From an uncultured Acidobacteriia bacterium (GTDB lineage: Bacteria; Acidobacteriota; Terriglobia; Bryobacterales; Bryobacteraceae), in contig CAINNJ010000023.1 in assembly GCA_903851195.1 (NCBI GenBank), forward strand, positions 1-64,000: 64,000 nt of DNA, in the 5' to 3' direction. Under the pieces are notes generated by a model. It searched no databases and was not told the DNA's origin. It was given only the letters and a program-made list of their open reading frames with translations. The position numbers and the translations under genes were made by a program. Of the stretch, positions 1-54,764 are shown one piece after another (position 1 is the stretch's first letter; the number at the start of each line of letters is the position of its first letter).

Positions 1-1
1 G

Positions 2-100
2 CATCGCGCTGGTGTCAGCAAAGCGGAGATCGCCCGCCGCCTCGGGATCGGCCGTACTTCCGTGCGCCGTATTCTTAAGACCTATTTCCCGGAGAAATAG
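2..100 (+). CDS. Serine recombinase/resolvase C-terminal helix-turn-helix (5'-truncated by window edge)
   Basis: Reading frame 2 is open from the first base of the window to a TAG at 98-100. It encodes a typical resolvase/invertase C-terminal DNA-binding HTH: GVSKAEIARRLGIGRTSV, followed by RRIL and a short basic tail. In serine recombinases this domain recognises the crossover site. The catalytic N-terminal domain lies outside the window, so it cannot be said whether the gene is intact. It runs toward the 3' end of the cytochrome operon that converges on it. It could alternatively be the end of another HTH_7 protein such as a transposase. Confidence 0.7.
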   Translation, partial: HRAGVSKAEIARRLGIGRTSVRRILKTYFPEK

Positions 101-177: not shown

Positions 178-1677
178 TCAAATCGTCCTGAGGAACGCGA
201 TCAGCGCCGCTTTTTCCCCGGCAGGGAGCGCGAGGCCGAACTCATGTCCTTTGATCGCGCGGGATTTCACTCCGGCACCTTTGAATCCCGTTGGTACATA
301 GTCGTCGCGAAGACGTGCGGCGCTAAGCCACTCTTCCAGACTTGCCACGGCGCCGTCGTGCCCATAGAGTCCCCGATACCAAACGCCTTTCAGGGCCGGC
401 ACTTTATACAACCCTGTTCCTTTCCGAGTCTTTAAAGCGAGCGACGGATCGGTTCCGACGGACAGCGGCATGATGTCCGCGTGAAGGGGATGTTCGGCCG
501 GTGGACTATACCCTGCGGCGAGCGTCAGCTGATTGTTCGTATAAAGCGGCGGAGTATGGCACCCCCCGCATCCGGCTCCGGCAAAAACGGCCCTGCCCCG
601 CTCCGATAGCTCGCCGGAGTGATTGGGATTCGGCGGCGGCTCTAACGAGTAAATGTATTGCGCGAGCGCAAACAGGAGCTCATCCGGCCACCGAACCCTT
701 ACTTTTCGCTGCGCGTCACTAAGCATTCGATAGTGGCCAAAGTCCATCGAGTCGCTGTACTCGACGAGCGCCGCGTAACGCATCAGATCTCCGACACTCC
801 GGTGCCGGTGTGTCGCCGTATGATCGATGAATTTCCGATCGCGAAAACCAATCAGGTCGGGAACCTTCGTAACGTAATAGATACTGCCGTTTGGGCGGTC
901 GGTCACGCCTGCGATCTCGGCGTCGAAAAGCGCTGCGATTTGTTGCTCCGGCATGTTTTTCAGCCCTGCGTGAATGTCGCCCTGGATCCAGGGCGCCCCG
1001 AACTGCCGGTATAGCGACATTGCGAGGGTGTCGCCCGCATACGATATACGTAATAACTCGTCGCCCATGCGGTCCAGCAGCGAGTCTGAGATTCTGTGAC
1101 CCACAAAACCGGCGCCGGCTACGGCTGTTCCGTCATCCAAAAACCGGGTGTGGCACGACGAACATGCAGTGATGCTGAGCCCGATACCGCGCGGTGTCAC
1201 TACCCAGCGATAGTGGGCGAGTGTGCCATCGGGCCGAATCACCAGGCGATTCTCATTCTTTCGAACGTAATCGGCCGATCTTGCGAGGGAAATCGACTGC
1301 TGGTCGAAAAGACGGAAGAACGGCACATCCGCCTCGTCCCATACGCGTTTGCCCGCAGCGACCCAATCGAACGCCGGACCGACTTTTGCAGCGTCGATCA
1401 GGGGCTCGGGCTTCTGAACCTTGAGTTTGGCCCAATATCCCGCAGGCTCACAATCGGGATGGTACACGGGATAAGTCCTGTAATTATCTACCGGCGCGCG
1501 ATAGTATTCTTCCTGCGAGAAATGCCCCGGACTGATGTGGGCCGATGCGAGCGGTGTCGCCCATTGCGCGAGTTCCTGAGCGTCCCACGTGCGCGGCGCC
1601 TGTTGCGCGAGAAGCGGGATTCCCCAGAGCATTGCGATCAGACCCGGGTGCATCGATTGCCTAATGCGCAGCAGCAC
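178..1677 (-). CDS. Secreted di-haem cytochrome c, pair C
   Basis: Protein of 499 aa with an N-terminal signal sequence (basic LLRIRQ, hydrophobic stretch, LAQQ). It has two CXXCH haem-attachment motifs, CSSCH in the first half and CGGCH in the second half followed by TPPLYTNN. The C-terminus is strongly conserved with the 1500-nt genes at 3583 and 7301 (GTDP, TRKGTG, WYRG, PTGFKG, GHEFGL, ALIAFLRT). It is presumably a periplasmic electron carrier or peroxidase-like di-haem enzyme; its substrate is not known. It is the last gene of a six-gene run. The GTG start overlaps the upstream stop by 17 nt. A second candidate ATG at 1653 has AGG overlapping that stop, but its signal peptide would lack basic residues. 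Confidence 0.85.
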   Translation of the reverse strand: MLLRIRQSMHPGLIAMLWGIPLLAQQAPRTWDAQELAQWATPLASAHISPGHFSQEEYYRAPVDNYRTYPVYHPDCEPAGYWAKLKVQKPEPLIDAAKVGPAFDWVAAGKRVWDEADVPFFRLFDQQSISLARSADYVRKNENRLVIRPDGTLAHYRWVVTPRGIGLSITACSSCHTRFLDDGTAVAGAGFVGHRISDSLLDRMGDELLRISYAGDTLAMSLYRQFGAPWIQGDIHAGLKNMPEQQIAALFDAEIAGVTDRPNGSIYYVTKVPDLIGFRDRKFIDHTATHRHRSVGDLMRYAALVEYSDSMDFGHYRMLSDAQRKVRVRWPDELLFALAQYIYSLEPPPNPNHSGELSERGRAVFAGAGCGGCHTPPLYTNNQLTLAAGYSPPAEHPLHADIMPLSVGTDPSLALKTRKGTGLYKVPALKGVWYRGLYGHDGAVASLEEWLSAARLRDDYVPTGFKGAGVKSRAIKGHEFGLALPAGEKAALIAFLRTI

Positions 1678-3538
1678 GCTCAGTCCCCGCCTGGGCCAGA
1701 ATTGCCCGATGGCGTTCGTATTTGTACTTGGTGGCCAGTTCCAGCGCGGTCAGCCCTTCCGGGTTCTTCGAATTTCGATTCGCGCCAGCCCCCAGCAGCA
1801 ATTGCAGCATCGCGCTGTCGCCAAAATCGCTGGCCGCAGCCCAAAGCAGGGGAGTGTAGCCCAGTTTGTCGACGTGGTTCACGTCGGCTCCCTTCGTCAG
1901 GAGCAATGAGGCCATCTTCGTGTCGTTTTTGACCACTGAGACGCCCAGCGAGGTAACTCCATCGTCGGGATCCACGACCTCTTCAAGCGGCGTACCTCCG
2001 CGAAGCAAAGCTTCCACCATGGCCAGATCGCCCTGCATCACTGCCACGTTGAGAGGCGTCACGGGAAAAAGGCCGCCGGCCAGCATCGTGCTCCGGACGG
2101 GTGCACCGCCGCTTTGCAGGACTTTCATGGCTTCAAGGTCCCCACTGTAGACGGACAGAATGAGCGGATTCGAGCCGAACTGGGCGGGCTGGGCCTTAGG
2201 CGGAACCGCTTCGGCTTTGTGATCAAGTAAGAGACGCACCGAATCAGTGGCATGATGGCTGGCGGCAATCATTACGGCTGTATAGCGCGTTTTCGACCGG
2301 GCCTGTACGTTGGCTCCACGTTCGATCAGGAGCGAAGTTTTGTCGAAATCCGCGGCGGCCATCATGAGGGCAGTAGTGCCTGAAGCTGTTGCGCTGTTGA
2401 CGTTCCACCCCGTGTCGACCAATTGTCGCGTCCGGGCAATGCTGCCGAACAACAACGTCTCCGCCCAGGCGGGAACGTTGCCGGGTTTCGCGGCGGAAAG
2501 GTCGAGAGCATCCGGAGGTGTCGATGATTCCGGTATGGCCAGCAGCAGGGCCGCTGCCGCCCAGCTTGTTCCCATCGCGGAGACGGACTGATCGTGGCCG
2601 TATGGCAAGCCTGTCTCAAAGTAGGGTGGACTCCAGGTCCCCGGCGGATGCAGGCGGCTGGCGACGAACCAGGTACCGTCGAGTTTTTGAGTGCTCAGAA
2701 GATAGCGCAGGCCTCTTTGATACGCGGGATCAGATGCGTGTGTGTGGCCTGCCTGCAGCAACGCCGCGAGCGCCTCACCTGTCGCGTAGGCATCGCTCGC
2801 CCGGCTGGAAATCTGGCCCCACCCTCCATCGGGCCGTTGTTCAGCAAGCAACTGATCGCAAAGGTTCCGGATCAAGCGGGGATCGCTGCCTGCCCAGTGA
2901 AGGCCGAACAACTGATAGACCCGGTCCTCGTTATCAAGCGGGAGAGTTCGTTCCAGCCATGCCCGCGCGTCGCGGACACGCCTGTTACGCTCTTCCGCCA
3001 TGGTTTCGGGAAGAAAGAGCTGGAGAACACGCAACGCGTTTGCCGTTGTCGTGAACGGGCTGAAAGATTGCGGTGGACGAATGTCATCGCCGGGAGTCCA
3101 GTGACCATCGGGTCTCTGACGGCGCGCGATAAGACGGGCGATGACTCCGGTGGACACGCTCTGTCCCAAACCCAACGACGCGGCTGTCACGATCCGCTGA
3201 CCCACACCATTCACCGGATTGAGGAAGTCTGAGCCTTGCAGGTTGCGGTCAAAATCCTGTAAACCTCCAAAAGAGGTGAGGCTCCGGACGACGACCTTTT
3301 GTAATTTGGTCCGGTCGACAGGGAACCCTCGGCGGCGGGCAAGGTTGAACACCATCATTGGCAGGTCCTGGTGGTGGCAGGAGGGACAGGTTTGCTTCCC
3401 GAACCACGTTTCGGAAGCTTCGAGGAGCAGGTTTACCGATTTCGCAGCCGCGGGCCGGAGTTCCCGCTCAGTGATTTGGCAATTCCCGTGTGTCGCAAAT
3501 GCAATCCCGATTGCGAAGACTAGTTCCGGTCTCGTCAT
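1661..3538 (-). CDS. Secreted toroid-ankyrin protein with one CXXCH, pair C
   Basis: Protein of 625 aa. After a short signal sequence comes a region with one haem-type motif (CPSCHHQ). It continues into an alpha/alpha-toroid domain resembling the squalene-hopene cyclase/prenyltransferase fold, shown by repeats such as RPDGHW, RPDGGWGQ, LDGTWFV and a conserved GTSWA. The C-terminal third is four to five ankyrin repeats (GTTALMMAA, YTAVMIAAS, YTPLLWAA). No cyclase catalytic DxDD motif was seen, so terpene cyclisation is not implied. The start has a strong AGGAGG five bases before the ATG. It follows a 44-nt gap after the pair B cytochrome and overlaps its own partner cytochrome, suggesting the two act together in the periplasm. 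Confidence 0.8.
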   Translation of the reverse strand: MTRPELVFAIGIAFATHGNCQITERELRPAAAKSVNLLLEASETWFGKQTCPSCHHQDLPMMVFNLARRRGFPVDRTKLQKVVVRSLTSFGGLQDFDRNLQGSDFLNPVNGVGQRIVTAASLGLGQSVSTGVIARLIARRQRPDGHWTPGDDIRPPQSFSPFTTTANALRVLQLFLPETMAEERNRRVRDARAWLERTLPLDNEDRVYQLFGLHWAGSDPRLIRNLCDQLLAEQRPDGGWGQISSRASDAYATGEALAALLQAGHTHASDPAYQRGLRYLLSTQKLDGTWFVASRLHPPGTWSPPYFETGLPYGHDQSVSAMGTSWAAAALLLAIPESSTPPDALDLSAAKPGNVPAWAETLLFGSIARTRQLVDTGWNVNSATASGTTALMMAAADFDKTSLLIERGANVQARSKTRYTAVMIAASHHATDSVRLLLDHKAEAVPPKAQPAQFGSNPLILSVYSGDLEAMKVLQSGGAPVRSTMLAGGLFPVTPLNVAVMQGDLAMVEALLRGGTPLEEVVDPDDGVTSLGVSVVKNDTKMASLLLTKGADVNHVDKLGYTPLLWAAASDFGDSAMLQLLLGAGANRNSKNPEGLTALELATKYKYERHRAILAQAGTERAAAH

Positions 3539-3582
3539 TTCGTCCTCCTGGTTTCCTTTTTTCCCGTTCCTCTCGGGTGCAC

Positions 3583-5082
3583 TCAGAGTGTCCTCAGGAA
3601 TGCGATCAGCGCCGTCTTTTCGCCGGCTTCGAGCCGCAACCCGAACTCATGCCCTTTGATGGCCCGTGTCTTCACGCCCACGCCTTTGAAGCCGGTTGGT
3701 ATGTAGTCGTCGCGAAGGCGCGCCGGGTCGAACCAGTCTTCGAGCGTGGCCACAGAGCCATTGTGTTCGAACGGCCCCCGATACCAGACTCCCCGGAGGG
3801 AGGGCACCTTGTAGTAGCCGGTGCCCTTGCGGGTTTGCAACGCAAGTGTGGGGTCTGTACCGACGCTGATTTTCGTGATCGAGTACCGGGATAAATGTTC
3901 CCCCGGGGGGATGAAGCCCTGCGCGGGCGTCAGAGTATTGTTCGTGTAGAAAGGCGGAGTGTGGCAGCCCTCACAACCTTCCCGTTTGAAGATGCCCGCG
4001 CCGCGCGCCGTGAGCCCTGTGGCATGGTTTGGATTCGGCGGCGGCCGAAGCGAGTAAAGATAACGCGCCAGCGCATACAGTTGGGGGTCGCTCATGCGCT
4101 CTTCGAGAACGAATCCAGGCACGCTCGGAGGCAAAGCATAATCGCCAAAACCGCTCAGCGTATTCGACTGAATGAAGGCCGCGAAGCGCATCAGGTCGCC
4201 GATACCGCGGTGCAGCGCATGACCGGTGTGGTCCAGGTATTTGCGATTCCCGATTCCAATCAGGTCCGGAACCTGGACCGGCGAGAACAGGCTTGAGTTG
4301 TGACAGGCCGTCAATCCGGCAGGCTCCGCCTCGAAAGCCGCAATCAGGTCCGTGGCGGACATGCCGTTGCTCCGGTTATTCAGATCGTCCCTGAGCCAGG
4401 GCGTGCTGTAATCGTGGGTCAGAATCGCGCGCATACCTGCCAGGAACGCAGTCTCGCCCAGCGCGGGCAGCGCCTTGCTCATCAGATACGCATTACTTTG
4501 AGCACGCGGAAAATTGCCCTGTGCTCCCTTAACTACTGAACCGTCGCGCAGCACGCGGGTGTGGCAGTTACCGCAGGAAAGGGTTCCAAGTTCGACCTTG
4601 CCCTTTTCACGAACGAGAAAGCGATAGAAGGGTACGGTCCCGTCTTTGGCCACCGGGACGTGATGATCCCGATTCCATACGGGGTCGCTGATGTATCCGG
4701 CGGCATCCAGCGACGAGATGGTGACAGGCGCGTCGAACACCAGTTCGCCTGCGCGGATCCAATCGGCATCGCTTCGTAGCTTCGACGCGTCGAAGACGAG
4801 TTCGGGTTGAGCGCGCCTGAGCTTCTCACTGTATCCGGCGGGCTCGCGACCGGGAGCGTAAACTAGGTAGCTCTTGTAGATCTTCAGCTCGGGAAGACGG
4901 TAAAACTGATCGGCTGTTAACGGTACCGGATCATGGCCCGGCTCTGCGAGAGGTACATGCCAGCCGGAGAGAGCCGTTTCATCCCATACCTTTGGAACAG
5001 CCGCGGGTTGAGCTTTTATCTCGTACGCCGAAAGCGCAACTCCGGCTGCCAGAACAAGGTTGCGGCAGGGTCCACGCATCAT
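3583..5082 (-). CDS. Secreted di-haem cytochrome c, pair B
   Basis: About 499 aa from the chosen start. The ATG at 5082 overlaps the upstream TGA (ATGA) and is followed by a clean signal peptide (MMRGPCRNLVLAAGVALSAY). The frame is open 15 codons further upstream, but that extension is unlikely. Haem motifs are CGNCH (LSCGNCHTRV) and CEGCH (CEGCHTPPFYTNN). The C-terminal block GTDPTLALQTRKGTGYYKVP and HNGSVATLEDWF is nearly the same as in the genes at 178 and 7301. It is a member of a three-copy paralogous family, each copy sitting directly behind a toroid-ankyrin gene. Periplasmic electron transfer is the likely role, with an unknown donor. Confidence 0.87.
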   Translation of the reverse strand: MMRGPCRNLVLAAGVALSAYEIKAQPAAVPKVWDETALSGWHVPLAEPGHDPVPLTADQFYRLPELKIYKSYLVYAPGREPAGYSEKLRRAQPELVFDASKLRSDADWIRAGELVFDAPVTISSLDAAGYISDPVWNRDHHVPVAKDGTVPFYRFLVREKGKVELGTLSCGNCHTRVLRDGSVVKGAQGNFPRAQSNAYLMSKALPALGETAFLAGMRAILTHDYSTPWLRDDLNNRSNGMSATDLIAAFEAEPAGLTACHNSSLFSPVQVPDLIGIGNRKYLDHTGHALHRGIGDLMRFAAFIQSNTLSGFGDYALPPSVPGFVLEERMSDPQLYALARYLYSLRPPPNPNHATGLTARGAGIFKREGCEGCHTPPFYTNNTLTPAQGFIPPGEHLSRYSITKISVGTDPTLALQTRKGTGYYKVPSLRGVWYRGPFEHNGSVATLEDWFDPARLRDDYIPTGFKGVGVKTRAIKGHEFGLRLEAGEKTALIAFLRTL

Positions 5083-7304
5083 CGCACCCCGGCAGGTGCG
5101 GTCAGCATGAGCGCCATGGCAGCCCAACTCGTGCCCGCGGCGGAAATGAACTGGTCAGGCCCATGCGGAAAGCCGGCATCGAGCGGAGGCTGGATCGCGA
5201 GGGCATGCGATGCAACGAACCATGAGCCATCCTGCCTTTGCGTTTCGCGCAGGAATTGCACGCCTCGCCGGTACGCGGCATCTTCTGTGGAGATGCCGGC
5301 CGCCTGGTTCAGCGCGAAGAGAGCCATCCCGGTCGCGTAGGCGTCACATGGCAAACCGGATAGTTGCGACCACCCGCCATCCGAGCGCTGTTCTTTCAGC
5401 AGGGCCGCGGCAAGGTCGCCCATGACCGGCGATTTCATCCCGGACCAGTGAAGGCCCAGCATTTGGAATATGCGCTCGTCGGTGTAGCGTGGAACGCTGG
5501 CCAGGAGCCAGTCGCGGCCCTGCCGAACGACCGTTTCATATCCGCGCGAGCGCGGCCCTGCGCCGTAAAGCCGGATTGCGTGAATCGCGAATGCCGTTGT
5601 GGAGAAGTCACTGTACTCGATGGGCGGACGTGCGCCGGAGGGATGCCAATTGCCGGAGGGAAGCTGACGGGCCGCGATGTTCCTGACGAAAGCGGCCGTG
5701 GTGCTGTCCGGTGCATAACCCGCCGCGGCCAGACCTGCCAAAGCGTAGCTGCCGGATAGCGGCGGCCCCTCGTCGTCCATCATCTGCAGCATCTTTTCGC
5801 GCTGAGATTTCATGGCCTCGACGACAACCGCGGTTCGCCGGACCGCTTCTTCGCGATCGAAGCGGAATCCACGCTCTTCAGCCAATCCCAGTGCCATCGC
5901 GGGAAGTGACTGGTTGTGGCAGGACTTGCATCCGGTCCTGTTAAAAAATCCCGAATCGCTGCGTTGCAGTACCGTCAGGCTGCGCTCGACGGCGGTTTTT
6001 ATATCAGGCGTGGGATCAGTACGGTGTTGCGGCGGCGCCGCTGCCCTCGCGGAAGCTTGCCCGGCGCCTGCCTCAAGCAGCGCCTTCAGCACCGGCGTAT
6101 TGCCCTTCGCGCTGGCGCGGCTCAACGCGGACTCTCCGCCTTCCGTGGCGAAATGAACGTCCGCACGTTGCCCCAGCAGGAGCCGAATCATATCGACATC
6201 CTGCGCCTCCGCGTAAGCGGCGAGCATGAGCGGTGTTCCGGGACTTTTGCGCATGAACACAGTCTCCGGGATCGGCAGATTCACGGCGGCTCCGCTGTCG
6301 AGTAACATTGCCGCGATCTCTTTTCGATCCCATAGCCCGGCGAGCGCCAGCGGCGTAAAACCGAAACCATCCTTCTGGTCCACCGGAACTCCCTTGTGGA
6401 GCAGAAGCTTCACAGCATCGGCATTGCCGTACCAGACAGCGGCCGTGAGCGGAGTAAGCAAAGCGGGTCGCCCGAGGTCCGCGCCGTGAGCAAGCAACTG
6501 AGTCACATTGCGCGCATCTCCGGATGCAGCGGCACGAACCAGAGGTGTAAAGCCATCTTCGTCGCTGATATTGACCTCTGCGTGTTGCTTCAGCAACTCG
6601 GCTGTGACCGGACCGGATCCGAAGCGAAAACATGCCGCAAGCAAAGCGGTGGCGCCATACTTTGTCTTCGCATTTACGTCGGCGCCCCCGGCGAGCAACA
6701 GTTTCAGTTTGGCCAGGTCGTCAACGGCCCAGAGGAGCGCGGTCGAGCCCTCATCGCTCGCAAGATTGGGATTTGCGCCGCGCCGGAGCAGAAGCTGCAT
6801 CAGCTTCAGGCTGCCATTCAGCGCGGCGTGCATCAGAGGCGTTGCTCCATCCTCATCCCGCGCGTTGATCAGCTGCCGGTCGCGCAGTATCCGCCGAACC
6901 TCTGCCATGTCGTCCCGATCAATGGCTGAGAACAGAGATGCGGCGGGCGGAGGAAGTGGGTCATCGCCGGCCATGGCTTCCGTTGCCCAGGTTTTCAGAA
7001 GCTCTGCCTCGCGCGGAGAAAGACCCAAAGCAGTTGGCCAGGGTGGCATTCGAATCGATGGGTCAGTGCTTGTGATGCGGCGAACGAACTCGCTTTTTTG
7101 CCCGCCCGCTATTGCTGACTGCCGCTGTTCCTTCTTATCCAGCCGAATGCCCGAAAGCTGCTGTGCGGCTCCGTGGCAGACGAAACATTTCGCCGCAAGA
7201 ACGGGACGGATTTCACGAATATAATCCACGTTCGCGCTCGCCCCCGGCAGGACGGATAGGATCGCCAGTGCAGACAGCTTCATCACACGCATACTTCTCC
7301 TCAT
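5079..7304 (-). CDS. Secreted c-type haem protein: cytochrome c - ankyrin - toroid, pair B
   Basis: Protein of 741 aa whose domain order is permuted relative to its two paralogues. After a signal peptide comes a Planctomycete-type cytochrome c segment with CFVCHG and RMPPW. About six ankyrin repeats follow (GATPLMHAAL, GSTALLWAV, GFTPLVRAA, GFTPLALAG). A second haem motif GCKSCHNQ comes next, then the toroid domain with SGNWHP, RSDGGWSQL, QDGSWFVAS and GTSWAAMAL. The first ATG overlaps the upstream stop (ATGA). An AGGAGA lies a few codons inside and could serve the third Met at 7283, which starts a better signal peptide (MKLSALAIL). It is paired with the cytochrome ending at 3583. Confidence 0.82.
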   Translation of the reverse strand: MRRSMRVMKLSALAILSVLPGASANVDYIREIRPVLAAKCFVCHGAAQQLSGIRLDKKEQRQSAIAGGQKSEFVRRITSTDPSIRMPPWPTALGLSPREAELLKTWATEAMAGDDPLPPPAASLFSAIDRDDMAEVRRILRDRQLINARDEDGATPLMHAALNGSLKLMQLLLRRGANPNLASDEGSTALLWAVDDLAKLKLLLAGGADVNAKTKYGATALLAACFRFGSGPVTAELLKQHAEVNISDEDGFTPLVRAAASGDARNVTQLLAHGADLGRPALLTPLTAAVWYGNADAVKLLLHKGVPVDQKDGFGFTPLALAGLWDRKEIAAMLLDSGAAVNLPIPETVFMRKSPGTPLMLAAYAEAQDVDMIRLLLGQRADVHFATEGGESALSRASAKGNTPVLKALLEAGAGQASARAAAPPQHRTDPTPDIKTAVERSLTVLQRSDSGFFNRTGCKSCHNQSLPAMALGLAEERGFRFDREEAVRRTAVVVEAMKSQREKMLQMMDDEGPPLSGSYALAGLAAAGYAPDSTTAAFVRNIAARQLPSGNWHPSGARPPIEYSDFSTTAFAIHAIRLYGAGPRSRGYETVVRQGRDWLLASVPRYTDERIFQMLGLHWSGMKSPVMGDLAAALLKEQRSDGGWSQLSGLPCDAYATGMALFALNQAAGISTEDAAYRRGVQFLRETQRQDGSWFVASHALAIQPPLDAGFPHGPDQFISAAGTSWAAMALMLTAPAGVR

Positions 7305-8809
7305 AAGGTTTTCAGAAAAGCGATTAGAGCCGCTTTTTCCCCGGGCGGGAGCCGCAAACCAAATTCGTGACCTGGCACGGCTCGTGTTGTTACGCCGACA
7401 CCGGCGAACCCGGTCGGCTGATAGTCATCGAGGAGCCTGCGCTCGTCGAACCAGTCTTCCAGCGTGCCTACCGAGCCATTGTGTTCAAAGGGGCCGCGAT
7501 ACCAGAGACCGCGCAGCGAAGGCACTTTGTAATAACCGCTGCCTCTCCTGGTATGAAGCGTGAGCCTTGGATCGGTGCCGATGGGAATGTCGAGTATGTC
7601 GTACTTTGTCCGGTGACCGGGGGGGATCTGGAACTCCCGAACAGGCAGCAGCTTGTTATTCGTATAGACCGGTGCGGGATGACATCCGGCGCAACCTGCC
7701 CGCTCGAATACCCCACGGCCTTGTTCGGCCCTTGTATCGAAGTGATTTGGATTCGGGGGCGGCTTCAGAGAGTAAAGGTAAAGAGCGAGCGCGTACAATT
7801 GGGCGTCGCTGAAGCGCTCCTGCGTCTCTGGCGGCGGCAATTTCGAGAAATGGTCCAGTCCCGACGGGATGAAGCCTCCGAAGCTCGAAAGGAACTCGAT
7901 CCCCTGGGCCATGGACGCGTAGCGCATTAAGTCAACCGGAGCGCGATGGATGGTGCCGCCCGCGCGGTCGAGGTACTTGCGGTCGCGAACGCCAATCAGA
8001 TCGGGAACCGCGGGCGGGTAGAACGGGCTGGAACGGTTTCGGGCGAACACCCCCGGCGGGATAGCATCGTGCGCGGCGTTGAAGTCCTCGATCGAAATAC
8101 CCTCAAGCCGGGCCTTCATCGCGGGCACCCACTGCACCGCAAACAGGCCAAGTTCATCATTGAGGAGATCGGCTTTGGATTTTTTCGATCGGCGGGTTCG
8201 GAATGCGATTGCCTTATCGAATGAAAAATTACTCTGAGCGCCTTTCACGACCAATCCATCCGGCATTACGCGCGTGTGACAAAAGCCGCAGGAGAGGACG
8301 CCGAGTTCGACCTGCCCGGCGCTGCGAATCACGTACCGCATCCATGGAATGGAGCCGTCCTTCGCTAAAGGAATGCCAGTCGCCCTGTACCACTCCGGGT
8401 TGACCACATCTTCAGGCGCGACCGAGGTTCCGTATTCTGTTGGGGCATCGAAGACGATTTCGCCTGCCCGAGTCCAATCTTCCCTGCTCTTCAGCCTGGC
8501 TGGATCGAAGGCAATTTCGGGCGACAGGCGCTTGAGTTTGTCCAGATATCCCGCCGGGCCCCTGCCCGGGGCGTAGACGGGATAGCTCTTGTAAATAGCA
8601 GCAATCGGGATTTTGTAGTAATAATCTTCCGAAACTGCTTTGGGCGAGTACTCAGGCTGAGACACCGGGATTTCCAGAGTCTCGAGGGCGGATTGCTGCC
8701 AGACTCTGGGCACTTCCGGGTGAAATGGCACACCGGGCTGGGCCGCCACCACGGCGCAGGCACTCACCAGCCACGTAATGCTTCTTCGCCATTGCACTGA
8801 GGAATTCAT
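7301..8809 (-). CDS. Secreted di-haem cytochrome c, pair A
   Basis: Protein of 502 aa beginning with a signal peptide (SVQWRRSITWLVSACAVVAA). The two haem motifs are CGFCH (LSCGFCHTRVMPDG) and CAGCH (CAGCHPAPVYTNN). The conserved C-terminal module has GTDPRLTLHTRRGSGYYKVP, HNGSVGTLEDWF, PTGFAG and GHEFGLRL. Start and stop overlap the neighbouring genes by four bases on each side (ATGA at 8806-8809 and 7301-7304), so translation is probably coupled. Paralogue of the genes at 178 and 3583. A periplasmic redox role is inferred from the haem motifs and signal peptide only. Confidence 0.87.
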   Translation of the reverse strand: MNSSVQWRRSITWLVSACAVVAAQPGVPFHPEVPRVWQQSALETLEIPVSQPEYSPKAVSEDYYYKIPIAAIYKSYPVYAPGRGPAGYLDKLKRLSPEIAFDPARLKSREDWTRAGEIVFDAPTEYGTSVAPEDVVNPEWYRATGIPLAKDGSIPWMRYVIRSAGQVELGVLSCGFCHTRVMPDGLVVKGAQSNFSFDKAIAFRTRRSKKSKADLLNDELGLFAVQWVPAMKARLEGISIEDFNAAHDAIPPGVFARNRSSPFYPPAVPDLIGVRDRKYLDRAGGTIHRAPVDLMRYASMAQGIEFLSSFGGFIPSGLDHFSKLPPPETQERFSDAQLYALALYLYSLKPPPNPNHFDTRAEQGRGVFERAGCAGCHPAPVYTNNKLLPVREFQIPPGHRTKYDILDIPIGTDPRLTLHTRRGSGYYKVPSLRGLWYRGPFEHNGSVGTLEDWFDERRLLDDYQPTGFAGVGVTTRAVPGHEFGLRLPPGEKAALIAFLKTL

Positions 8810-10686
8810 TGGGGCTCTTTCGGATGCGCCTGTTGCAGAGCCGCTAAAACGTCCCTCAGTCCATACTTCTCTGCTTGTGTGCGCGGGGTCACTCCGCCTT
8901 TGCCGGGCATGTCCACCCGCGCGCCCGCTGCGAGAAGCTTTCTCACCGTTTCCGCGTTGCCGAACTCAATCGTGGAAGCCCAGATTAAAGGAGTCATCCC
9001 TTTGTTATCGATGTGATTCGGATCTCCACCGAGCTGCGCAAGTAACTCGACCATCGCCGAATAGTCGAACGTGGCAGCTCGTTCTAATGGCGTGATTCCG
9101 CCCTTGTCTGCTTCGTCCACCGAAGCGCCACTTTGCGCCAGGTATCGGACCATCGGCAGGTCATTGTAATAGACAGCCAGCATAAGAGGCTGAATCACGA
9201 AACCTCCGAATGCCTGACTCTTCCGCCGGACATCGGCCTGCCGTTCTACCAGCAACTTGACGGTGGCCAGGTCGCCCGAGATGATTGCCTGGATTAACGG
9301 CGACCTGTCGAAAAGCACTCTCACTCCGGCAGGTGGCTCAATCGCCGCGCCGCGATCCAGAAGTAACTGAACTGTTTTCGCGTTGTCTCCGAAAGAGGCG
9401 GCGATCATCAACGCTGAATAGCCGGACTTTGCTCGTGCGTTCGGGTTTGCTCCCCGGTCCAGCAGTGCCTTGACTTTGCCGGGATTGGAGGCGGTTAACA
9501 TCAATGCCGTCGTGCCGAGCCTCGTATGCGCGTTCGGGTCCAGTTTCCCGATTTCTGACGGCGAGCCGAACAGGGCCGCCCCGACCCAGTTGTCCTGCGG
9601 TGGGACGAAGTCCGTCAGAGCCGGTGGCTGCGCACCCGACGAGGGAAGCGCGAGCGAGAGGGCCATCACTGCCCAACTGGTGCCCGAACAAGACGCAACC
9701 TGATCTTTCCCATGCGGGAAGCCGGTTTCGAAATAGGGCGGGCTGAGCGGTGCGTTGTCATGAATGCGAGAGGGGACCAGCCACGACCCGTCTGCCATTT
9801 GCGTATTCAGCAGGAATGTAAGACCGCGCTGTATCGCCTTGTGTTCTACCGGAATCTCACCGCCTTCAATCAGGGCGAACAATACTTGCCCAGTCGCGTA
9901 GGCATCGCTTTTTCGCGATGCGATTTGTGACCAACCTCCATCGGGACGCTGCTGCTCAATCAGCCCCCGCGCGTATTCTTCGCGGTGTGAAACGGGCGTC
10001 CCGCTCCACTTAGCGCCGAGTAATCGAAAGGCCTCGTCCTCCACCACGGCCGGCTTACTCATTTCGAGCCATTGTCGCGCTCGCGCAACTCGCCTTTTTG
10101 CGGCGTCGAAATTCGGGGGCGACCAGGAATTTAGAGCCCGCACGCTGAGAGCGGTCGCGGTGAACAGGCTGCCGGATTGAGGAGGCCGAACGTCCAGCGT
10201 TCGCCAGTGTCCGTCATTTCGCTGTTGCGACGCGAGCATTTGTACCATGGCTCCGGAGGCGTTGTTTCGCGGGAGTCCGGCCTGTTGTGCCGCCCAAAGC
10301 GCATAGCTGTCTCCGACGAAATTAGTCGCGTCAATGCCTTGTGCAATGTAGTCCGGATCAGTTAAATAGACATAAGCCCGTCGAAAATGATCCCGCGCCG
10401 CGGCTTCGTCAATCGCTACCCCGTGCTGCCTGGCAGTGGTCAATGCCAGGGTAGGCAGCGAGGAGTGATGACAGGATGTACAGGACTTCTGCTCGAACCA
10501 GACTTTTCCTGACAGCTGAAGCAATGCGATCGATTTCTCAACTGCGGGGCGGATTCGCGCCGGTTCGACCGCGGTTCCCGCTAACGTGACTGGAGCAAAG
10601 ACCGCTACCAGGCAGATCACATTCAGATGCAGCACCCGTGCCCGACTCGCGATCTGCGCGCCAAACGAATAATATGGAATCGGCAT
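8806..10686 (-). CDS. Secreted toroid-ankyrin protein with one CXXCH, pair A
   Basis: Protein of 626 aa, the first gene of the three-pair run. The order is signal or anchor segment (residues about 15-35), a haem motif in CTSCHHSS, and a toroid domain with QRNDGHW, QRPDGGWSQI, DAYATG, MADGSWLVPS and GTSWAVMAL. Five or so ankyrin repeats follow (GTTALMLTAS, YSALMIAAS, GITPLERAA, MTPLIWAS). It is collinear with the protein at 1661. A purine-rich AAGGAA sits close to the ATG. The 82 bp upstream separates it from the TPR regulator on the same strand and may hold the operon promoter. The substrate or partner is unknown. Confidence 0.82.
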   Translation of the reverse strand: MPIPYYSFGAQIASRARVLHLNVICLVAVFAPVTLAGTAVEPARIRPAVEKSIALLQLSGKVWFEQKSCTSCHHSSLPTLALTTARQHGVAIDEAAARDHFRRAYVYLTDPDYIAQGIDATNFVGDSYALWAAQQAGLPRNNASGAMVQMLASQQRNDGHWRTLDVRPPQSGSLFTATALSVRALNSWSPPNFDAAKRRVARARQWLEMSKPAVVEDEAFRLLGAKWSGTPVSHREEYARGLIEQQRPDGGWSQIASRKSDAYATGQVLFALIEGGEIPVEHKAIQRGLTFLLNTQMADGSWLVPSRIHDNAPLSPPYFETGFPHGKDQVASCSGTSWAVMALSLALPSSGAQPPALTDFVPPQDNWVGAALFGSPSEIGKLDPNAHTRLGTTALMLTASNPGKVKALLDRGANPNARAKSGYSALMIAASFGDNAKTVQLLLDRGAAIEPPAGVRVLFDRSPLIQAIISGDLATVKLLVERQADVRRKSQAFGGFVIQPLMLAVYYNDLPMVRYLAQSGASVDEADKGGITPLERAATFDYSAMVELLAQLGGDPNHIDNKGMTPLIWASTIEFGNAETVRKLLAAGARVDMPGKGGVTPRTQAEKYGLRDVLAALQQAHPKEPQ

Positions 10687-10768
10687 GTTCCTTTTGATTC
10701 GGCTTTCGTGATTTTAGGCCGCAGGTTTGAATTGCGGGAGTTAATTGGGGTTAGCGGCGGACGGTGCC

Positions 10769-12046
10769 TCAATCAAATATCCGCTGCAGTCTGGCGTCCA
10801 CCTTTCCCATCAGCAGCCCCCATGCGCGCTCCCGCCTTGCGTTAGCCATGTACTTTGCCGCGCTCTGGCGCCTGTTCAGCGCTCCGGCGATTGCGGCCAG
10901 GTGAACAGGAGATACGTAGCCATAAGGAGGATCGGCTCTCAGGCGGTCGAACATGCATTCCGCTTCGTCACGCCGCCCGCCCTCGGCCAACACGTAAGCT
11001 AAAGCGCCCAGAGTTGCACTTGTTTCAGACAAGCGCACGGCGTGGGAAGCCGCTTCAACTGCCTCGTCGTGTTGCCCCATTTCCGTATGCGCGAGGGATG
11101 TCCACGAATGGGCCACTGCCAGGGCGGGTTCCGCCCGAACGACGTCCTTCAATACCTGAATCGCCTCTGCACTTCGGCCCGCGTAGTAAAACAGGCGACC
11201 AAGGTAGGCGCGGAACAGAGTGCGATCCGGAGCGCATCGGATGGCCTCCTGCATATGCGCAAGGCTGGCTTCATGCTGTCCGGCTGCGGACAGGAGAGCA
11301 GTCACCCAAAAGTGGGCAAGAGCATTCCGCGGCTCAAGCTGCAGGGCACACCGGGCTTCTTCCGCCGCTTGCTCCTCTGCGCCGTCCACGAAAGCATGAC
11401 AAATGGACGCGGCGATGTGAGCGTCACCGCTGGTTTGATTCAGTTCCAGGGCTCGCGATGCCGATACGCGTAATTTGCCCATCACTTCGGGGGGTGACTT
11501 CGCCTCGTTGCTGAGTGCAAAGCCATGGCAACTCGCCAGACCGATATGCGGTCTCGGGTCGGAGGGATTCAGGTTGCGCGCCTCGACGAGGCAGGCGGCT
11601 GCTACATCGAGCGATGCCGGCGTACTCCGCATCATCGCGGCGGAGGCGATGCCGCACAGTTCCGCAATCTGGTTTTCGCCTGCCGCTCCGGTTTTTACTC
11701 CGCGTCCACAGTTGTGAAATTCCGGAACGTAACCGCCCTTGGGAACACAGATTGCCACCTCATCCAAACGGCCATCCCTCGCGTAGTAAGCGCTTAGCCG
11801 GTTCCTGAGTTTGATTGCTTCCACCCGGACAATGGAATCGATTTTTGGATCAAACGATGGTGACCGTGCATACACGCTCGTGGCGATCGAGTACTCTTTG
11901 AGCTGATGGCCGTTGCCGATGAGTGTTTCGGTGACAATGAAAACCAGGAAGTCGCGGAGCCGGCCAGCGCCCCGAAACTGCGGACTGCCGCAGATTCTTT
12001 CGACTTGTCTTCTTACCTGTCGTGGATCGATCATGCGGCTCGACAC
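10769..12046 (-). CDS. TPR protein with HTH-like N-terminal domain, putative regulator
   Basis: Protein of 425 aa. Residues 5-110 form a conserved domain (LRDFLVFIVTETL, YSIATSVYARSPSFDP, VRVEAIKLRNRLSAYY, VPKGGYVPEF) that also starts the protein at 12963. I know it from many proteobacterial and acidobacterial TPR or adenylate-cyclase-like proteins, where it is presumed to bind DNA. Residues 140-410 are tetratricopeptide repeats. No transmembrane helix was seen, so it is probably cytoplasmic. The GTG start is preceded by GGAGGA. It lies between a small secreted protein and the cytochrome operon on the same strand, which suggests it could control that operon; this is inference. Confidence 0.75.
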   Translation of the reverse strand: MSSRMIDPRQVRRQVERICGSPQFRGAGRLRDFLVFIVTETLIGNGHQLKEYSIATSVYARSPSFDPKIDSIVRVEAIKLRNRLSAYYARDGRLDEVAICVPKGGYVPEFHNCGRGVKTGAAGENQIAELCGIASAAMMRSTPASLDVAAACLVEARNLNPSDPRPHIGLASCHGFALSNEAKSPPEVMGKLRVSASRALELNQTSGDAHIAASICHAFVDGAEEQAAEEARCALQLEPRNALAHFWVTALLSAAGQHEASLAHMQEAIRCAPDRTLFRAYLGRLFYYAGRSAEAIQVLKDVVRAEPALAVAHSWTSLAHTEMGQHDEAVEAASHAVRLSETSATLGALAYVLAEGGRRDEAECMFDRLRADPPYGYVSPVHLAAIAGALNRRQSAAKYMANARRERAWGLLMGKVDARLQRIFD

Positions 12047-12080
12047 CCCGTCCTCCGGTTATCCTGGTTCCGTCGTTGAA

Positions 12081-12767
12081 TTAAAACAAGCGCGGCAGGG
12101 CGCTCAGTTCTCCCCCGATTGCGACGCCCGATCCCGCAGCCGTAAAGACGAGGGGAAACACGGGAGAGCCGCCCAGTGGAATATTGCTGGAAAGTGTAAA
12201 GAACGTAAAACCGTGCGGCAGAAGACGCGCGAGATTATAAGTCTCGCCTTTGAACACGAACGGCCGGCTCGATACCAGGACATAAGACTGCGTTACCAGC
12301 GCGACAGGGCCCGAGCCAGTCTGCGTTCCTGGCGTTGATTTAAAAGTTGCGATCAGCTGACCGGCTGAAAAGCTGCCGGGATTCGCCCAGCTTTGGTTTG
12401 GCGTCGCATTGTAGTATACGCTAAAACTCTCTCCTGCGGGTAACACAGCGACCCCAGTGCTTCCGGGCAGCGCAGCGTCCCCATTGGCAATCTGCACGGC
12501 TTCCGGTGCGTTCAGATACCAGGTGAAGTAGGCGGTGGATTCTCCCGCCGCGCCAGCAAACAATGGATCGGGCAGACCGGTCACGCCAGTGAAATAACCG
12601 AAAGCCGCTACTTCCGGCGGGTTCACGATGAGGCGGTTCACGTATGTCAGGACAGTTTGACCGCCCGTCGCCGGGCTTAACAACTGAGCCTGGGCCCTGT
12701 GGGAACAAACACAGTTGAGGAAACAAAAACCCGCAAGCAGGTTTGTTACTAAAATCACACGTTTCAT
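12081..12767 (-). CDS. Secreted protein of unknown function
   Basis: Protein of 228 aa with an N-terminal signal peptide (MKRVILVTNLLAGFCFLNCV, cleavage probably after AQAQ). The rest is beta-rich and Gly/Ser/Thr/Pro-rich with no motif I recognise. It resembles the extracytoplasmic hypothetical proteins common in acidobacteria that hold beta-sandwich repeats. A good GGAGG lies seven bases before the ATG. It is followed after 34 nt by the TPR regulator on the same strand, so the two may be one transcript leading into the cytochrome operon. Confidence 0.7.
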   Translation of the reverse strand: MKRVILVTNLLAGFCFLNCVCSHRAQAQLLSPATGGQTVLTYVNRLIVNPPEVAAFGYFTGVTGLPDPLFAGAAGESTAYFTWYLNAPEAVQIANGDAALPGSTGVAVLPAGESFSVYYNATPNQSWANPGSFSAGQLIATFKSTPGTQTGSGPVALVTQSYVLVSSRPFVFKGETYNLARLLPHGFTFFTLSSNIPLGGSPVFPLVFTAAGSGVAIGGELSALPRLF

Positions 12768-12962
12768 GTAATAGCCTCCGCAAGGCAGTATTGCCCCGCA
12801 GACATAACATGACTCAAATCAGCGCTCCTCAGAAGTACGGCGGGGTGTTATACAGGTACGTACGTCTTAGAATCAGTAAGTTGTGACGCGTCCACATAAA
12901 CGGCCGTCACGTGGCAACAGGTCGGGCAAACGAAGGCGCGCCGGTGGTGGGATGATAAATCC
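12768..12962. other. Divergent intergenic region
   Basis: These 195 bp separate two divergent starts, the secreted protein (minus) and the TolB-propeller protein (plus), so both promoters should lie here. The only structure I can point to is a tandem GTAC run at 12856-12865, including the palindrome ACGTACGT at 12858-12865. No convincing -35/-10 pair was identified. Confidence 0.35.
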
Positions 12963-32664: not shown

Positions 32665-33024
32665 GGGGGCGCATTGGTTTCGACGGGATCGAATCGCGAT
32701 GCGGAGGCGTGCCGGGTTCCGAGCTCCCGTAAAACGATCGGAAAACAAAAACTGCCAATAATCAGCAGTTTGCATACGCTGCTTAATTAAAAACTAAGTC
32801 AGTGCGCTCCGGTTAGTCAGCCTGCGGGCTAGCTAGTGAGTGTCATCACAGCGGGATAGGGAGCAGGCTTCTGTTCGTAGCCGAGACCCGAGATCAACCG
32901 GACTAGTCTTCTGCCGTTTCGCCCGGCTCTTTGGCAGAGGATGAAAATCAGAGCCAGGCTACGCACGTAGTCTCTTCATTTCGGGCTTTTTCGGACGGGG
33001 GTTCAACTCCCCCCGCCTCCACCA
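32665..33024 (+). ncRNA. ssrA: tmRNA (ssrA)
   Basis: 360 nt. The 5' GGGGGCG pairs with 3' CGCCTCC (one G-U), followed by an A and encoded CCA. GCATTGGTTTCGACGGG is the standard tmRNA 5' domain and GGGGGTTCAACTCCCCC is the T-arm of the tRNA-like part. The tag frame ends GCC AAT AAT CAG CAG TTT GCA TAC GCT GCT TAA (32754-32786), encoding ANNQQFAYAA if GCC is the resume codon. It rescues stalled ribosomes and marks the product for proteolysis. A TATAGT at 32642-32647 is a plausible -10 element. It stands alone between a secretin and an unrelated operon. Confidence 0.97.
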
Positions 33025-53709: not shown

Positions 53710-54764
53710 GCTTCGCCGTCACTCTTGCAGCCACTCTTCTGCTCGCCGCCGAACCTCCCGCCGCGGAGATCAGCAACGGTCAGATTGAGGCGAAGATCTA
53801 TCTGCCCGATCCTGTTAACGGGTTCTATCGCTCCACGCGGTTCGATTGGTCCGGCGCTATCGCGAGCCTGAAGTACAAAGGACATAATTTCTACGGTCCC
53901 TGGTTTTATCGGATCGATCCCGCCGTTTACGACCTTGGATACGACCCGAAAGGTGTGGTTTCGGCTCCGTTCACCGCCATGGTGGGACCGGCGGAAGAAT
54001 TCGGAACGGACGGCGCGGCGCTGGGGTTCGGCGAGGCAAAGCCCGGCGGCACCTTTGTAAAAATCGGGGTCGGGGTTTTGCGGAAGCCGCAGGCCGGGGA
54101 GCCGCCGCTGCCTCCTCCGCCGCCGGCGCGCGGCAACTCCGAACGTTACGATCACTCCCGCACTTACACTCTGGTCGATTCCGGAAAATGGACAGTCAAA
54201 AAGACGCGCGATTCCGTGGAATTCACGCAGGTGCTCGACGATCCCGCCGATGGCTATGCTTATATCTATCGCAAGGTAGTTCGCCTGATACCGGGAAAGC
54301 CGCAACTGGTCATTGAACACAGCCTGAAAAACACCGGGCGCCATCCGATTCAGTCGACGGTTTACAACCACAACTTCTTTGTGCCCGACGGTGAAGGCCC
54401 CAGCGAGGGTTTTACGATTACCGTGCCGTTCCCCATCGAATCGCCGCGTCCGCCTACGGCGGGTTTGCTGGAAGTGCGCGGGAATCAACTCCTCTATGTG
54501 AAGACACTGGAGAGCGAAGACCGGGCCACCGCGACCCTTCACGGATTCGGCAACAGCGCGAAAGACTATGACATTCGCGTGGAGAACAAAAAGACGGGTG
54601 TGGGGTATCGCGTGACTGGCGACCGGCCGTTATCGAATATCGCGGTCTGGTCAATCCGCACGGTGAATGCCGTGGAGCCCTATATCTCGATGTCGATCGA
54701 GCCGGGGAACGAGTTTACCTGGAATCTGAATTATGAGTACTACACGCTTCCCCGCATTCCGTAG
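53703..54764 (+). CDS. Secreted aldose-1-epimerase-like beta-sandwich protein
   Basis: 353 aa with a signal peptide (VSFAVTLAATLLLAAEPPA). Galactose-mutarotase-like supersandwich features: QIEAKIYLPDPVNGFYRSTR, DWSGAIASLKYKGHNFYGPW, LVIEHSLKNTGRHPIQSTVY (NTG), NHNFFVPDG, YISMSIEPGNEFTW. It would bind or epimerise a sugar in the periplasm. I cannot place it in a named family. It overlaps its neighbours by 7 nt upstream and 32 nt downstream, so it belongs to the operon starting at 51306. Confidence 0.75.
   Translation: MVSFAVTLAATLLLAAEPPAAEISNGQIEAKIYLPDPVNGFYRSTRFDWSGAIASLKYKGHNFYGPWFYRIDPAVYDLGYDPKGVVSAPFTAMVGPAEEFGTDGAALGFGEAKPGGTFVKIGVGVLRKPQAGEPPLPPPPPARGNSERYDHSRTYTLVDSGKWTVKKTRDSVEFTQVLDDPADGYAYIYRKVVRLIPGKPQLVIEHSLKNTGRHPIQSTVYNHNFFVPDGEGPSEGFTITVPFPIESPRPPTAGLLEVRGNQLLYVKTLESEDRATATLHGFGNSAKDYDIRVENKKTGVGYRVTGDRPLSNIAVWSIRTVNAVEPYISMSIEPGNEFTWNLNYEYYTLPRIP

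Follow-up and report, generated by a model that had tools for sequence, protein, structure and literature searches.

Squalene and oxidosqualene cyclases carry a D-X-D-D acid motif. Among the di-haem enzymes, MauG modifies methylamine dehydrogenase and MbnH modifies MbnP. The distal glutamine, proline and glutamate at the five-coordinate haem are conserved across bCCP, MauG and BthA (PMC6405878). The rubber oxygenases RoxA and RoxB are described, in an extract of the published account (PMC6311187), as having approximately 199 residues between the haem histidines and an H-N-G-S-V motif. In the Rox enzymes, the C-terminal haem is bis-histidine and the N-terminal haem open. The window, a 64,000-nucleotide stretch of a contig from an uncultured Acidobacteriia bacterium, contains an operon in which three divergent toroid proteins of one family (T) are paired with three divergent Rox/MauG-like di-haem proteins (D). 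The pairing is local, but it leads to a conserved family of squalene-cyclase-like toroids with a c-type haem motif. Of 150 genomes from the host's order, 92 encode the family. It also occurs in Planctomycetota, for example in the cultured Zavarzinella formosa (L178), and, according to the titles of the best 80 of 202 relatives, in several other phyla.

Organization of the operon

Positions 178–10686 contain six minus-strand genes in strict alternation, which form three toroid-cytochrome pairs. The genes and their surroundings, in gene order, are:

10769–12046, minus strand: TPR protein, 425 residues, 82 nt upstream of T1
8806–10686, minus strand: T1, toroid-ankyrin protein, 626 residues
7301–8809, minus strand: D2, di-haem c protein, 502 residues
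5079–7304, minus strand: T3, PSCyt1-ankyrin-toroid protein, 741 residues
3583–5082, minus strand: D4, di-haem c protein, 499 residues from ATG
3539–3582, minus strand: 44-nt gap before T5, containing AGGAGG; the sole non-overlapping junction
1661–3538, minus strand: T5, toroid-ankyrin protein, 625 residues
178–1677, minus strand: D6, di-haem c protein, 499 residues, GTG start

The junctions overlap by 4, 4, 4 and 17 bases, and all three 4-base overlaps are ATGA. The gap before T5 contains CAGGAGGACGAAATG. This layout confirms the first-pass annotation, which had reported six alternating minus-strand genes, overlaps of 4–17 bases and one 44-nt gap with AGGAGG. The genes encode 1, 2, 2, 2, 1 and 2 CXXCH motifs, respectively. 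A longer alternative of D4 from a TTG start would have 514 residues. The 17-base overlap of T5 and D6 depends on the GTG start of D6, and initiation at the ATG of the ninth codon would leave a 7-nt gap instead.

The window begins at base 1 of the contig, and the downstream side of the operon can be followed only to the contig end. Bases 1–100, beside the operon, contain the apparent end of a further gene, which we take to be serine-recombinase-like. On the upstream side, the TPR gene is possibly a regulator or the first gene of the operon. The host genome contains five clear toroid genes and three full di-haem genes, plus a sixth toroid match that is weak and partial. In another locus (L152), a relative of the N-terminal domain of the TPR protein is encoded only 6 nt before a toroid gene.

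The repeated pairs had been suggested to be the product of a triplication, which is rejected by the trees and approximately unbiased (AU) tests. Grouping of D2, D4 and D6 into one clade is rejected with an AU p of 1.15e-6, and that of T1, T3 and T5 with a p of 2.4e-4 in a test based on 44 of 87 alignment rows and a quick tree. A clade of T1 and T5 alone is not rejected (p 0.086). In-situ triplication of the pair is rejected on these results.

Toroid proteins with a haem motif

T1, T3 and T5 represent an undescribed family of apparently secreted proteins, in which a predicted CXXCH-bearing α/α toroid is joined to ankyrins; we call them haem-toroids. A limited literature search found nothing on this family. 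T1 has a signal-like N-terminus, CXXCH at residue 69, the toroid at residues ~42–345 and ankyrins up to residue ~620. T5 has CXXCH at residue 51, followed by the toroid and C-terminal ankyrins. The order is permuted in T3, where a PSCyt1 haem domain (CXXCH at residue 40) precedes the ankyrins, a second haem site (CXXCH at residue 459) and the toroid. The combination of toroid, ankyrins and CXXCH noted for all three proteins on first inspection was correct, but the reversed order of T3 and its additional N-terminal PSCyt1 haem had been missed. T3 carries its own PSCyt1 domain yet still adjoins D4.

The squalene-cyclase-like fold, also proposed earlier, is borne out by the AlphaFold model of T1 (pLDDT 91, pTM 0.89), which contains the α/α toroid and the ankyrins, and by comparison of the family profile with the PDB, where it matches squalene-hopene cyclase (E 7.5e-32), MmpH (1.7e-4) and pectate lyase (2.4e-3). 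Judging by their titles, the 50 Foldseek matches listed for the T1 model belong to ankyrin-repeat or DARPin chains. Pfam detects ankyrins in T1, T3 and T5. T3 (35.3) and T5 (26.3) reach the gathering score of SQHop_cyclase_C (26.1), and T1 (24.2) is below it. PSCyt1 (PF07635) matches T3 with 38.3 bits against a cut-off of 22, and the Pfam scan lists no match to it for T1 or T5. The cyclase models of NCBIfam are far from being reached, with T1 scoring 39.9 for TIGR01787 (322.7 required) and 24.8 for TIGR01507 (431.1 required), and T3 and T5 similarly. The haem part of the toroid proteins is covered by no Pfam or NCBIfam match.

CXXCH is present in 86 of 87 aligned toroids, and the motifs indicate that the haem is probably of c-type and covalently bound. 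The next-best histidine and methionine columns of the alignment are H303 (47/87) and M341 (48/87). W252 and W302 are invariant (87/87), and W206, Y263 and Y318 are present in 82–86 of the 87 sequences. R167, P169, G250–W252, D261, Y263, G322 and P324 are also strongly conserved. The D-X-D-D motif was found in none of the 87 toroids, and therefore no cyclase chemistry is expected.

Di-haem proteins

The CXXCH motifs are at residues 174 and 373 in D2, 170 and 370 in D4, and 172 and 370 in D6. All three proteins also contain a C-terminal H-D/N-G motif, which reads HNGSV in D2 and D4 and HDGAV in D6. The haem histidines are separated by 198–200 residues in the window proteins and by 185–212 residues across 56 family members. 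In the alignment of these 56 sequences, which were selected for having two CXXCH motifs, the conserved histidines besides those of the haem motifs are H443 of the MauG/Rox motif (56/56, D2 numbering) and H481 (55/56), and G445 is present in 54 of 56. Near haem 1, the 56 sequences share no conserved histidine or methionine beyond the haem motif. No glutamine column reaches 75% conservation, nor does any glutamate between the haems; P226 is conserved.

D4 scores 27.3 for RoxA-like_Cyt-c (PF21419, gathering score 26.7), D2 23.1 and D6 16.1. The window proteins obtain at most 20.6 bits for the NCBIfam RoxA, RoxB and RoxC models, which require 900–1000, and 21.8 (D2), 34.0 (D4) and 22.4 (D6) bits for the MbnH family TIGR04039 (curated score 362.85). 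No match to CCP_MauG (PF03150) is listed for any of them at E up to 0.1. Models of di-haem CcP, the MbnH family and MauG give scores in 30, 24 and 13 of 30 family members, respectively, with D2, D4 and D6 below the cut-offs. The best di-haem-enzyme match of the family profile in the PDB is 6e1c, titled 'Di-heme enzyme' (E 3.8e-10), presumably MbnH; the profile meets RoxA itself at E 0.27. An AlphaFold model calculated from the three window sequences was unusable (pLDDT 32). By its sequence features, the D family resembles the Rox and MauG proteins, but the distal glutamine and glutamate that peroxidases conserve are missing from it. An ordinary CcP or MauG was ruled out, since PF03150 is not matched and the distal residues are not conserved.

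Genomic distribution and partners

The toroid and di-haem proteins had been proposed to form one system. Elsewhere, however, they are mostly apart, and usual separation of the two families is what the first-pass annotation had named as refuting the system. None of the other genomes searched showed the pairing, which therefore seems not to be a conserved system. Of 113 D loci outside the window, none shows a toroid gene within 5 kb, or within the available flank where that is shorter, and a single one has a toroid gene about 11 kb away. The flanks on both sides are at least 0.5 kb in 102 of these loci, at least 2 kb in 80 and at least 4.5 kb in 52; the 113 leave out one short fragment, and some are broken or partial genes. 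Conversely, no D gene was found up to 6 kb per side of the 80 named toroid loci (the best 80 of 202 relatives); in 56 of these, each flank extends for 1.5 kb or more. Among the genomes of the order, 63 of the 92 that bear T lack D at E 1e-20. The toroid family is present in 29 of 41 genomes with D and in 63 of 109 without it, which reveals no association (p=0.19). Absences in this search are soft, because only part of the first-look candidates was scored, and many genomes are fragmented. Among the genomes searched, the T-D operon occurs solely in this one, and so the coupling rests on one locus.

Where the toroid has a recurrent partner, it is a PSCyt1 haem domain on ankyrins, either fused or encoded just upstream. 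The fusion is found in T3 and its relatives. A PSCyt1-ankyrin gene is located just upstream of eight of 20 toroid-only reading frames, which are eight of the ten acidobacterial ones, and six of these eight gene pairs overlap by 4 bases. No such upstream gene was detected at the ten non-acidobacterial toroid-only reading frames with an ankyrin model built from one consensus, whose counts are too low: the ankyrins of T5 and the upstream gene of locus L192, both Pfam-positive, escaped it. A shared neighbour of another kind was rejected, since no Pfam family occurs in more than three of the 59 co-directional neighbours that remain when PSCyt1-ankyrin genes are set aside. The toroid-ankyrin loci examined elsewhere contain no D and, among the same-strand neighbours listed, no CXXCH protein, and therefore the idea that D replaces PSCyt1 does not account for them.

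Possible function

We tentatively propose, as a possible reading, that the haem-toroid is a periplasmic redox protein, often served by PSCyt1 and here provided with a di-haem partner. A substrate would be bound in the toroid cavity, next to a haem for which no distal histidine or methionine is conserved. A second haem protein, in many cases PSCyt1 and in this operon D, would take electrons from the toroid protein one by one, and the ankyrin solenoid would keep the donor and acceptor together. The C-terminal haem of D, probably ligated by two histidines, could serve as the entry relay, and the electrons might be used or discarded at the open N-terminal haem, on O2 or peroxide. The three pairs may represent three specificities gathered by recruitment rather than by local duplication. 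This proposal is supported by the toroid fold and ankyrins, the near-universal CXXCH of the toroids, the PSCyt1-ankyrin-toroid unit, the conserved H443 and H481 of D, the strict alternation with three ATGA overlaps and the rejection of a triplication. It is weakened by the restriction of the pairing to one locus, the absence of an association in presence, the position of D4 beside the PSCyt1-bearing T3, the toroid-ankyrin loci elsewhere with neither D nor a listed CXXCH neighbour, and the lack of upstream PSCyt1-ankyrin genes outside the acidobacteria, as judged with the weak model. Of the original interpretation, the toroid fold, the c-type haem motif, the ankyrins and the tight operon are supported, and the two-protein system and the triplication are not.

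Recombination or shared regulation might instead have joined two unrelated periplasmic haem families without any physical or redox coupling. This explanation is doubtful: the single occurrence of the pairing, the operon not being a duplicated block, and the apparent gene end at bases 1–100, if the recombinase-like label is right, fit it, but chance would hardly produce three strictly alternating pairs with ATGA coupling. It is unlikely that the toroid protein is a haem-based sensor or scaffold, rather than an enzyme, with the ankyrins as its docking arm. The lack of the cyclase acid motif and, with PSCyt1-ankyrin genes set aside, of common co-directional neighbours would suit such a role, but the strong conservation of residues such as R167, D261 and P324 would rather suggest a ligand-binding or active site. 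Membership in a known anti-phage defence system was dropped, because at E 0.01 no PADLOC model matched any of the five sequences searched, namely the three D proteins and parts of two toroids.

Two further explanations assign the chemistry to D. By analogy with MauG and MbnH, D might oxidize a tryptophan or tyrosine of its operon partner. The conserved aromatic residues of the toroid, the scores of D with di-haem CcP, MbnH-family and MauG models, its match to 6e1c and the location of a di-haem enzyme next to a single partner gene are consistent with this, but toroids retain the aromatic residues in the 63 genomes without D, and D lacks the conserved glutamine or glutamate between the haems that bCCP, MauG and BthA have (PMC6405878). 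We consider such a modification quite unlikely. It is very unlikely that, in a sharpened form of the original interpretation, the toroid binds an isoprenoid, or another hydrophobic or polymeric substrate, which a Rox-like D would cleave or oxidize. Isoprenoid cyclases provide the closest profile to the toroid, D4 exceeds the RoxA-like_Cyt-c cut-off, and, as far as the extract of PMC6311187 describes RoxA, D is similar to it in the stretch before haem 1, the haem-histidine spacing and the H-N/D-G-S/A-V motif. Against it speak the missing D-X-D-D, the poor match to RoxA itself, the unreached Rox cut-offs, the activity of the similar toroids MmpH and pectate lyase on polysaccharides, and the usual separation of the two families.

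Extending our preferred redox reading, we speculate about a new class of periplasmic haem enzymes, in which a terpene-cyclase-type toroid would have become an oxidoreductase by means of a covalent haem at the N-terminal side. Ankyrins would wire it to PSCyt1 or, here, to a Rox-like di-haem oxygenase. Such enzymes could oxidize an isoprenoid, lipid or glycan in Acidobacteriota and Planctomycetota. We regard this extension as improbable.

Comparison with known systems

The PSCyt1 domain of T3 relates it to the PSCyt1-type planctomycete cytochromes. In T3, it is joined to ankyrins and a haem-toroid, neither of which is among the domain combinations named in the extract of PMC5615132. The α/α toroid with QW-like repeats is common to the T family, squalene-hopene and oxidosqualene cyclases, and single-domain toroids (8paj, 8pak; MmpH 7qsj; pectate lyase 1r76); a literature search on 8PAJ and 8PAK returned nothing useful. 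The haem-toroids differ from all of these in the conserved c-type haem site, the single toroid without D-X-D-D, the fused ankyrins and the signal-like N-terminus. D shares two CXXCH motifs and the C-terminal K-x-P-S-L...H-D/N-G motif with MauG, MbnH, BthA and bacterial di-haem CcP, but differs from them in the absence of a PF03150 match and of the conserved distal glutamine and glutamate, with P226 conserved. D resembles RoxA and RoxB, as described in the extract of PMC6311187, as a di-haem c protein with a long stretch before haem 1, a haem-histidine spacing of ~199 residues, H-N-G-S-V and, near the N-terminal haem, conservation of just the proximal histidine. D differs from RoxA and RoxB in its length of ~500 residues, the short segment after haem 2 and the different context of H481, the candidate ligand of the C-terminal haem.

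Layout and surroundings of the operon

Six minus-strand open reading frames of the window alternate between a haem-toroid family (T) and a di-haem cytochrome c family (D), as the first-pass annotation described:

1-100, plus strand: C-terminal helix-turn-helix end of a gene that we take to be serine-recombinase-like
178..1677, minus strand: D6, di-haem c protein
1661..3538, minus strand: T5, haem-toroid and ankyrin protein
3583..5082, minus strand: D4, di-haem c protein
5079..7304, minus strand: T3, haem-toroid and ankyrin protein
7301..8809, minus strand: D2, di-haem c protein
8806..10686, minus strand: T1, haem-toroid and ankyrin protein
10769-12046: TPR protein
12963-15110, plus strand: 715-residue protein sharing the N-terminal domain of the TPR protein (49% identity)
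32665-33024, plus strand: tmRNA, tag ANNQQFAYAA
33656-37817 and 54733-56634: two regions with a 935-residue protein carrying two CXXCH motifs, its neighbour, presumably DUF1552-like, and a CXXCH-bearing protein that we assume to be of the PQQ type

Three of the gene overlaps read ATGA, and the AGGAGG that had been pointed out does precede the fifth gene, T5. All six proteins have N-termini that, judged by eye, resemble signal peptides. The window makes up the first 64 kb of contig C23 in a genome of 7.7 Mb, and the operon stops 178 bases short of the contig end, beside the helix-turn-helix fragment. The two distant regions presumably encode further haem proteins besides those of the operon. 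At locus L152 a gene with the N-terminal domain of the TPR protein lies 6 nt from a toroid gene on the same strand, and at L193 another adjoins a toroid gene on the opposite strand.

Fold and haem motif of the toroid proteins

The proposed toroid is borne out by an AlphaFold prediction of T1 from 39 sequences (pLDDT 91, pTM 0.89), which has helices at residues 42-345 followed by ankyrin helices. Pfam recognises the ankyrins, and its squalene-hopene cyclase fragments score above the gathering threshold in T3 and T5 and just below it in T1. T3 differs from T1 and T5 in domain order, with a PSCyt1 haem domain, ankyrins and then the haem-toroid. A profile of 33 toroids matched squalene-hopene cyclase in the PDB (E 7.5e-32), followed by single-domain relatives, MmpH and a pectate lyase. 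These toroid relatives have activities on isoprenoids and also on glycans.

Residues R167, P169, G250-W252, D261, Y263, G300, W302, G322 and P324 are invariant or nearly so (85-87 of 87 aligned toroids), and D-X-D-D is absent from all 87. Judging from the alignment, the haem motif is an integral part of the toroid domain, since CXXCH is present in 86 of the 87 sequences. A conventional distal haem ligand is not conserved, because the next-best His and Met columns reach only 47 and 48 of 87. Beyond the fold, the haem motif, the operon and the partner statistics, we infer every step of a mechanism.

Occurrence and recurrent partner of the toroid family

Of the 150 genomes searched within the order, 92 contain T (E 1e-10). 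The window's own genome holds five clear copies, of which three lie inside the window; a sixth match is weak and partial. The scan of named genomes used the best 80 of 202 T relatives, which belong chiefly to Acidobacteriota and next to Planctomycetota (e.g. Zavarzinella formosa); by title, they include single metagenome-assembled genomes of Roseibacillus (Verrucomicrobiota), Chthonomonas (Armatimonadota), Actinomycetota and Bordetella. The toroid gene of the last (L153, titled Bordetella parapertussis) nests among Bryobacterales sequences, and the title is probably wrong.

A rough tally of 88 open reading frames (85 from the best 80 of 202 T loci and three of the window), in which ankyrins are undercounted, gave 32 toroids alone, 21 toroid-ankyrin, 18 PSCyt1-type-ankyrin-toroid, 11 ankyrin-toroid and 6 other architectures. 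A PSCyt1-ankyrin gene identified by Pfam lies just before 8 of 20 toroid-only frames, with a 4-base overlap in six cases and spacings of 3 and 42 nt in the remaining two. Among the ten acidobacterial frames, L141 and L177 were the two misses, and a contig end cuts into L177; no such gene was found before the ten non-acidobacterial frames with the weak ankyrin model. No Pfam family occurred in more than 3 of 59 other co-directional neighbours. The PSCyt1-ankyrin module is thus the recurrent partner of T, because it is fused to the toroid in some cases and translationally coupled in others.

Searches of the open literature combining cyclase/squalene, ankyrin, cytochrome and Acidobacteria/Planctomycetes topics found nothing on such proteins among the titles examined. 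PSCyt domains occur with carbohydrate-binding and other domains and are of unknown function; the passages of PMC5615132 that describe them do not mention toroids or ankyrins.

Pairing of the two families

The three T-D pairs had been read as one triplicated system. With the window's genome included in every count, D is present in 8 of 19 genomes of the genus, 73 of 237 of the family (1e-40), 41 of 150 of the order (E 1e-20) and 9 of 396 of the phylum (D4 as query). Among the order genomes, T occurs in 29 of 41 with D and 63 of 109 without it (Fisher p 0.19). In none of 113 D loci taken from other genomes, which cover every match listed except one fragment, is there a toroid gene within 5 kb, or within the available flank where that is shorter, which speaks against a co-occurring system. 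D is absent from the available stretches around the 80 named T loci (best 80 of 202), around 14 further T loci (L117-L130) and around the two other T loci of the window's genome. Within the genomes searched, the T-D arrangement is thus confined to this one. L099 is the sole one of the 113 D loci with a toroid, about 11 kb away; a 3567-residue repetitive, surface-like open frame (2981-13684) ends 8 nt before its D gene, and the toroid gene lies on the far side.

Trees and AU tests reject a local triplication. The tree built from 42 D sequences puts D2 and D6 into separate, well-supported groups, neither of which D4 joins by a starred branch; a single D2/D4/D6 clade was rejected (p 1.15e-6), as was D2 with D4 (p 0.0077). 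A quick tree of the 87 toroid sequences joins T1 to L131 (99) and puts T5 in a group with L133 (93) and T3 inside a clade of 47 containing the PSCyt1-ankyrin-toroid proteins (98). With 44 of the 87 rows, a T1/T3/T5 clade was rejected (p 2.4e-4) and a T1/T5 clade was not (p 0.086). Copying of the pairs as blocks is excluded because T1 is nearer to T5, but D2 is nearer to D4. Separate formation of the three pairs and replacement of members are the two possible histories. Pairing more than once would speak for T and D being functionally linked, though this is a single locus.

The di-haem family and its relation to known enzymes

D may have other partners in other genomes. An O-methyltransferase gene directly follows D, abutting or with a 4-base overlap, in L081, L088 and L089, three of one five-member D clade, and a protein of about 570 residues without a Pfam match precedes D in L088 and L089. 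Elsewhere in the window's genome, L115 (G000:C4:465000-478000) holds three consecutive two-CXXCH genes (522, 634 and 799 residues), the first two containing YLHNGSVPT, which resembles a motif of Rox proteins.

Among 30 aligned D proteins, NCBIfam scores were obtained with the di-haem CcP model NF040606 for 30, MbnH for 24, MauG for 13 and RoxC for 7; for D2, D4 and D6, all were far below the cut-offs. The Pfam RoxA-like_Cyt-c score was reached by D4 and not by D2 or D6. The top PDB match of the D profile, a cytochrome c555 trimer, is confined to the surroundings of the second CXXCH; further matches are the di-haem enzyme 6e1c (3.8e-10), presumably MbnH, CcPs from 1.2e-5, MauG (0.013) and RoxA (4b2n, 0.27).

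In an alignment of 56 D sequences selected for two CXXCH motifs, the only other His conserved above 93% are H443 (56, in an H-N/D-G motif) and H481 (55). Pro226 is conserved, no Gln reaches at least 75% conservation anywhere, and no Glu does so between the haems. The passages of PMC6405878 on distal pockets give Gln, Pro and Glu as common to bCCP, MauG and BthA; D, unlike these, lacks the full set. RoxA, in the passages of PMC6311187 on its haems, has H195 and H394 at a distance of 199 residues; its N-haem has a single axial His and its C-haem two, and its motif reads PYFH517NGSVP. D resembles it in haem-His spacing and in an H-N-G-S-V-type motif. Because spacing and motif match RoxA and the distal set is not kept, D is a separate branch of the wider di-haem group, with a layout nearer to that of Rox.
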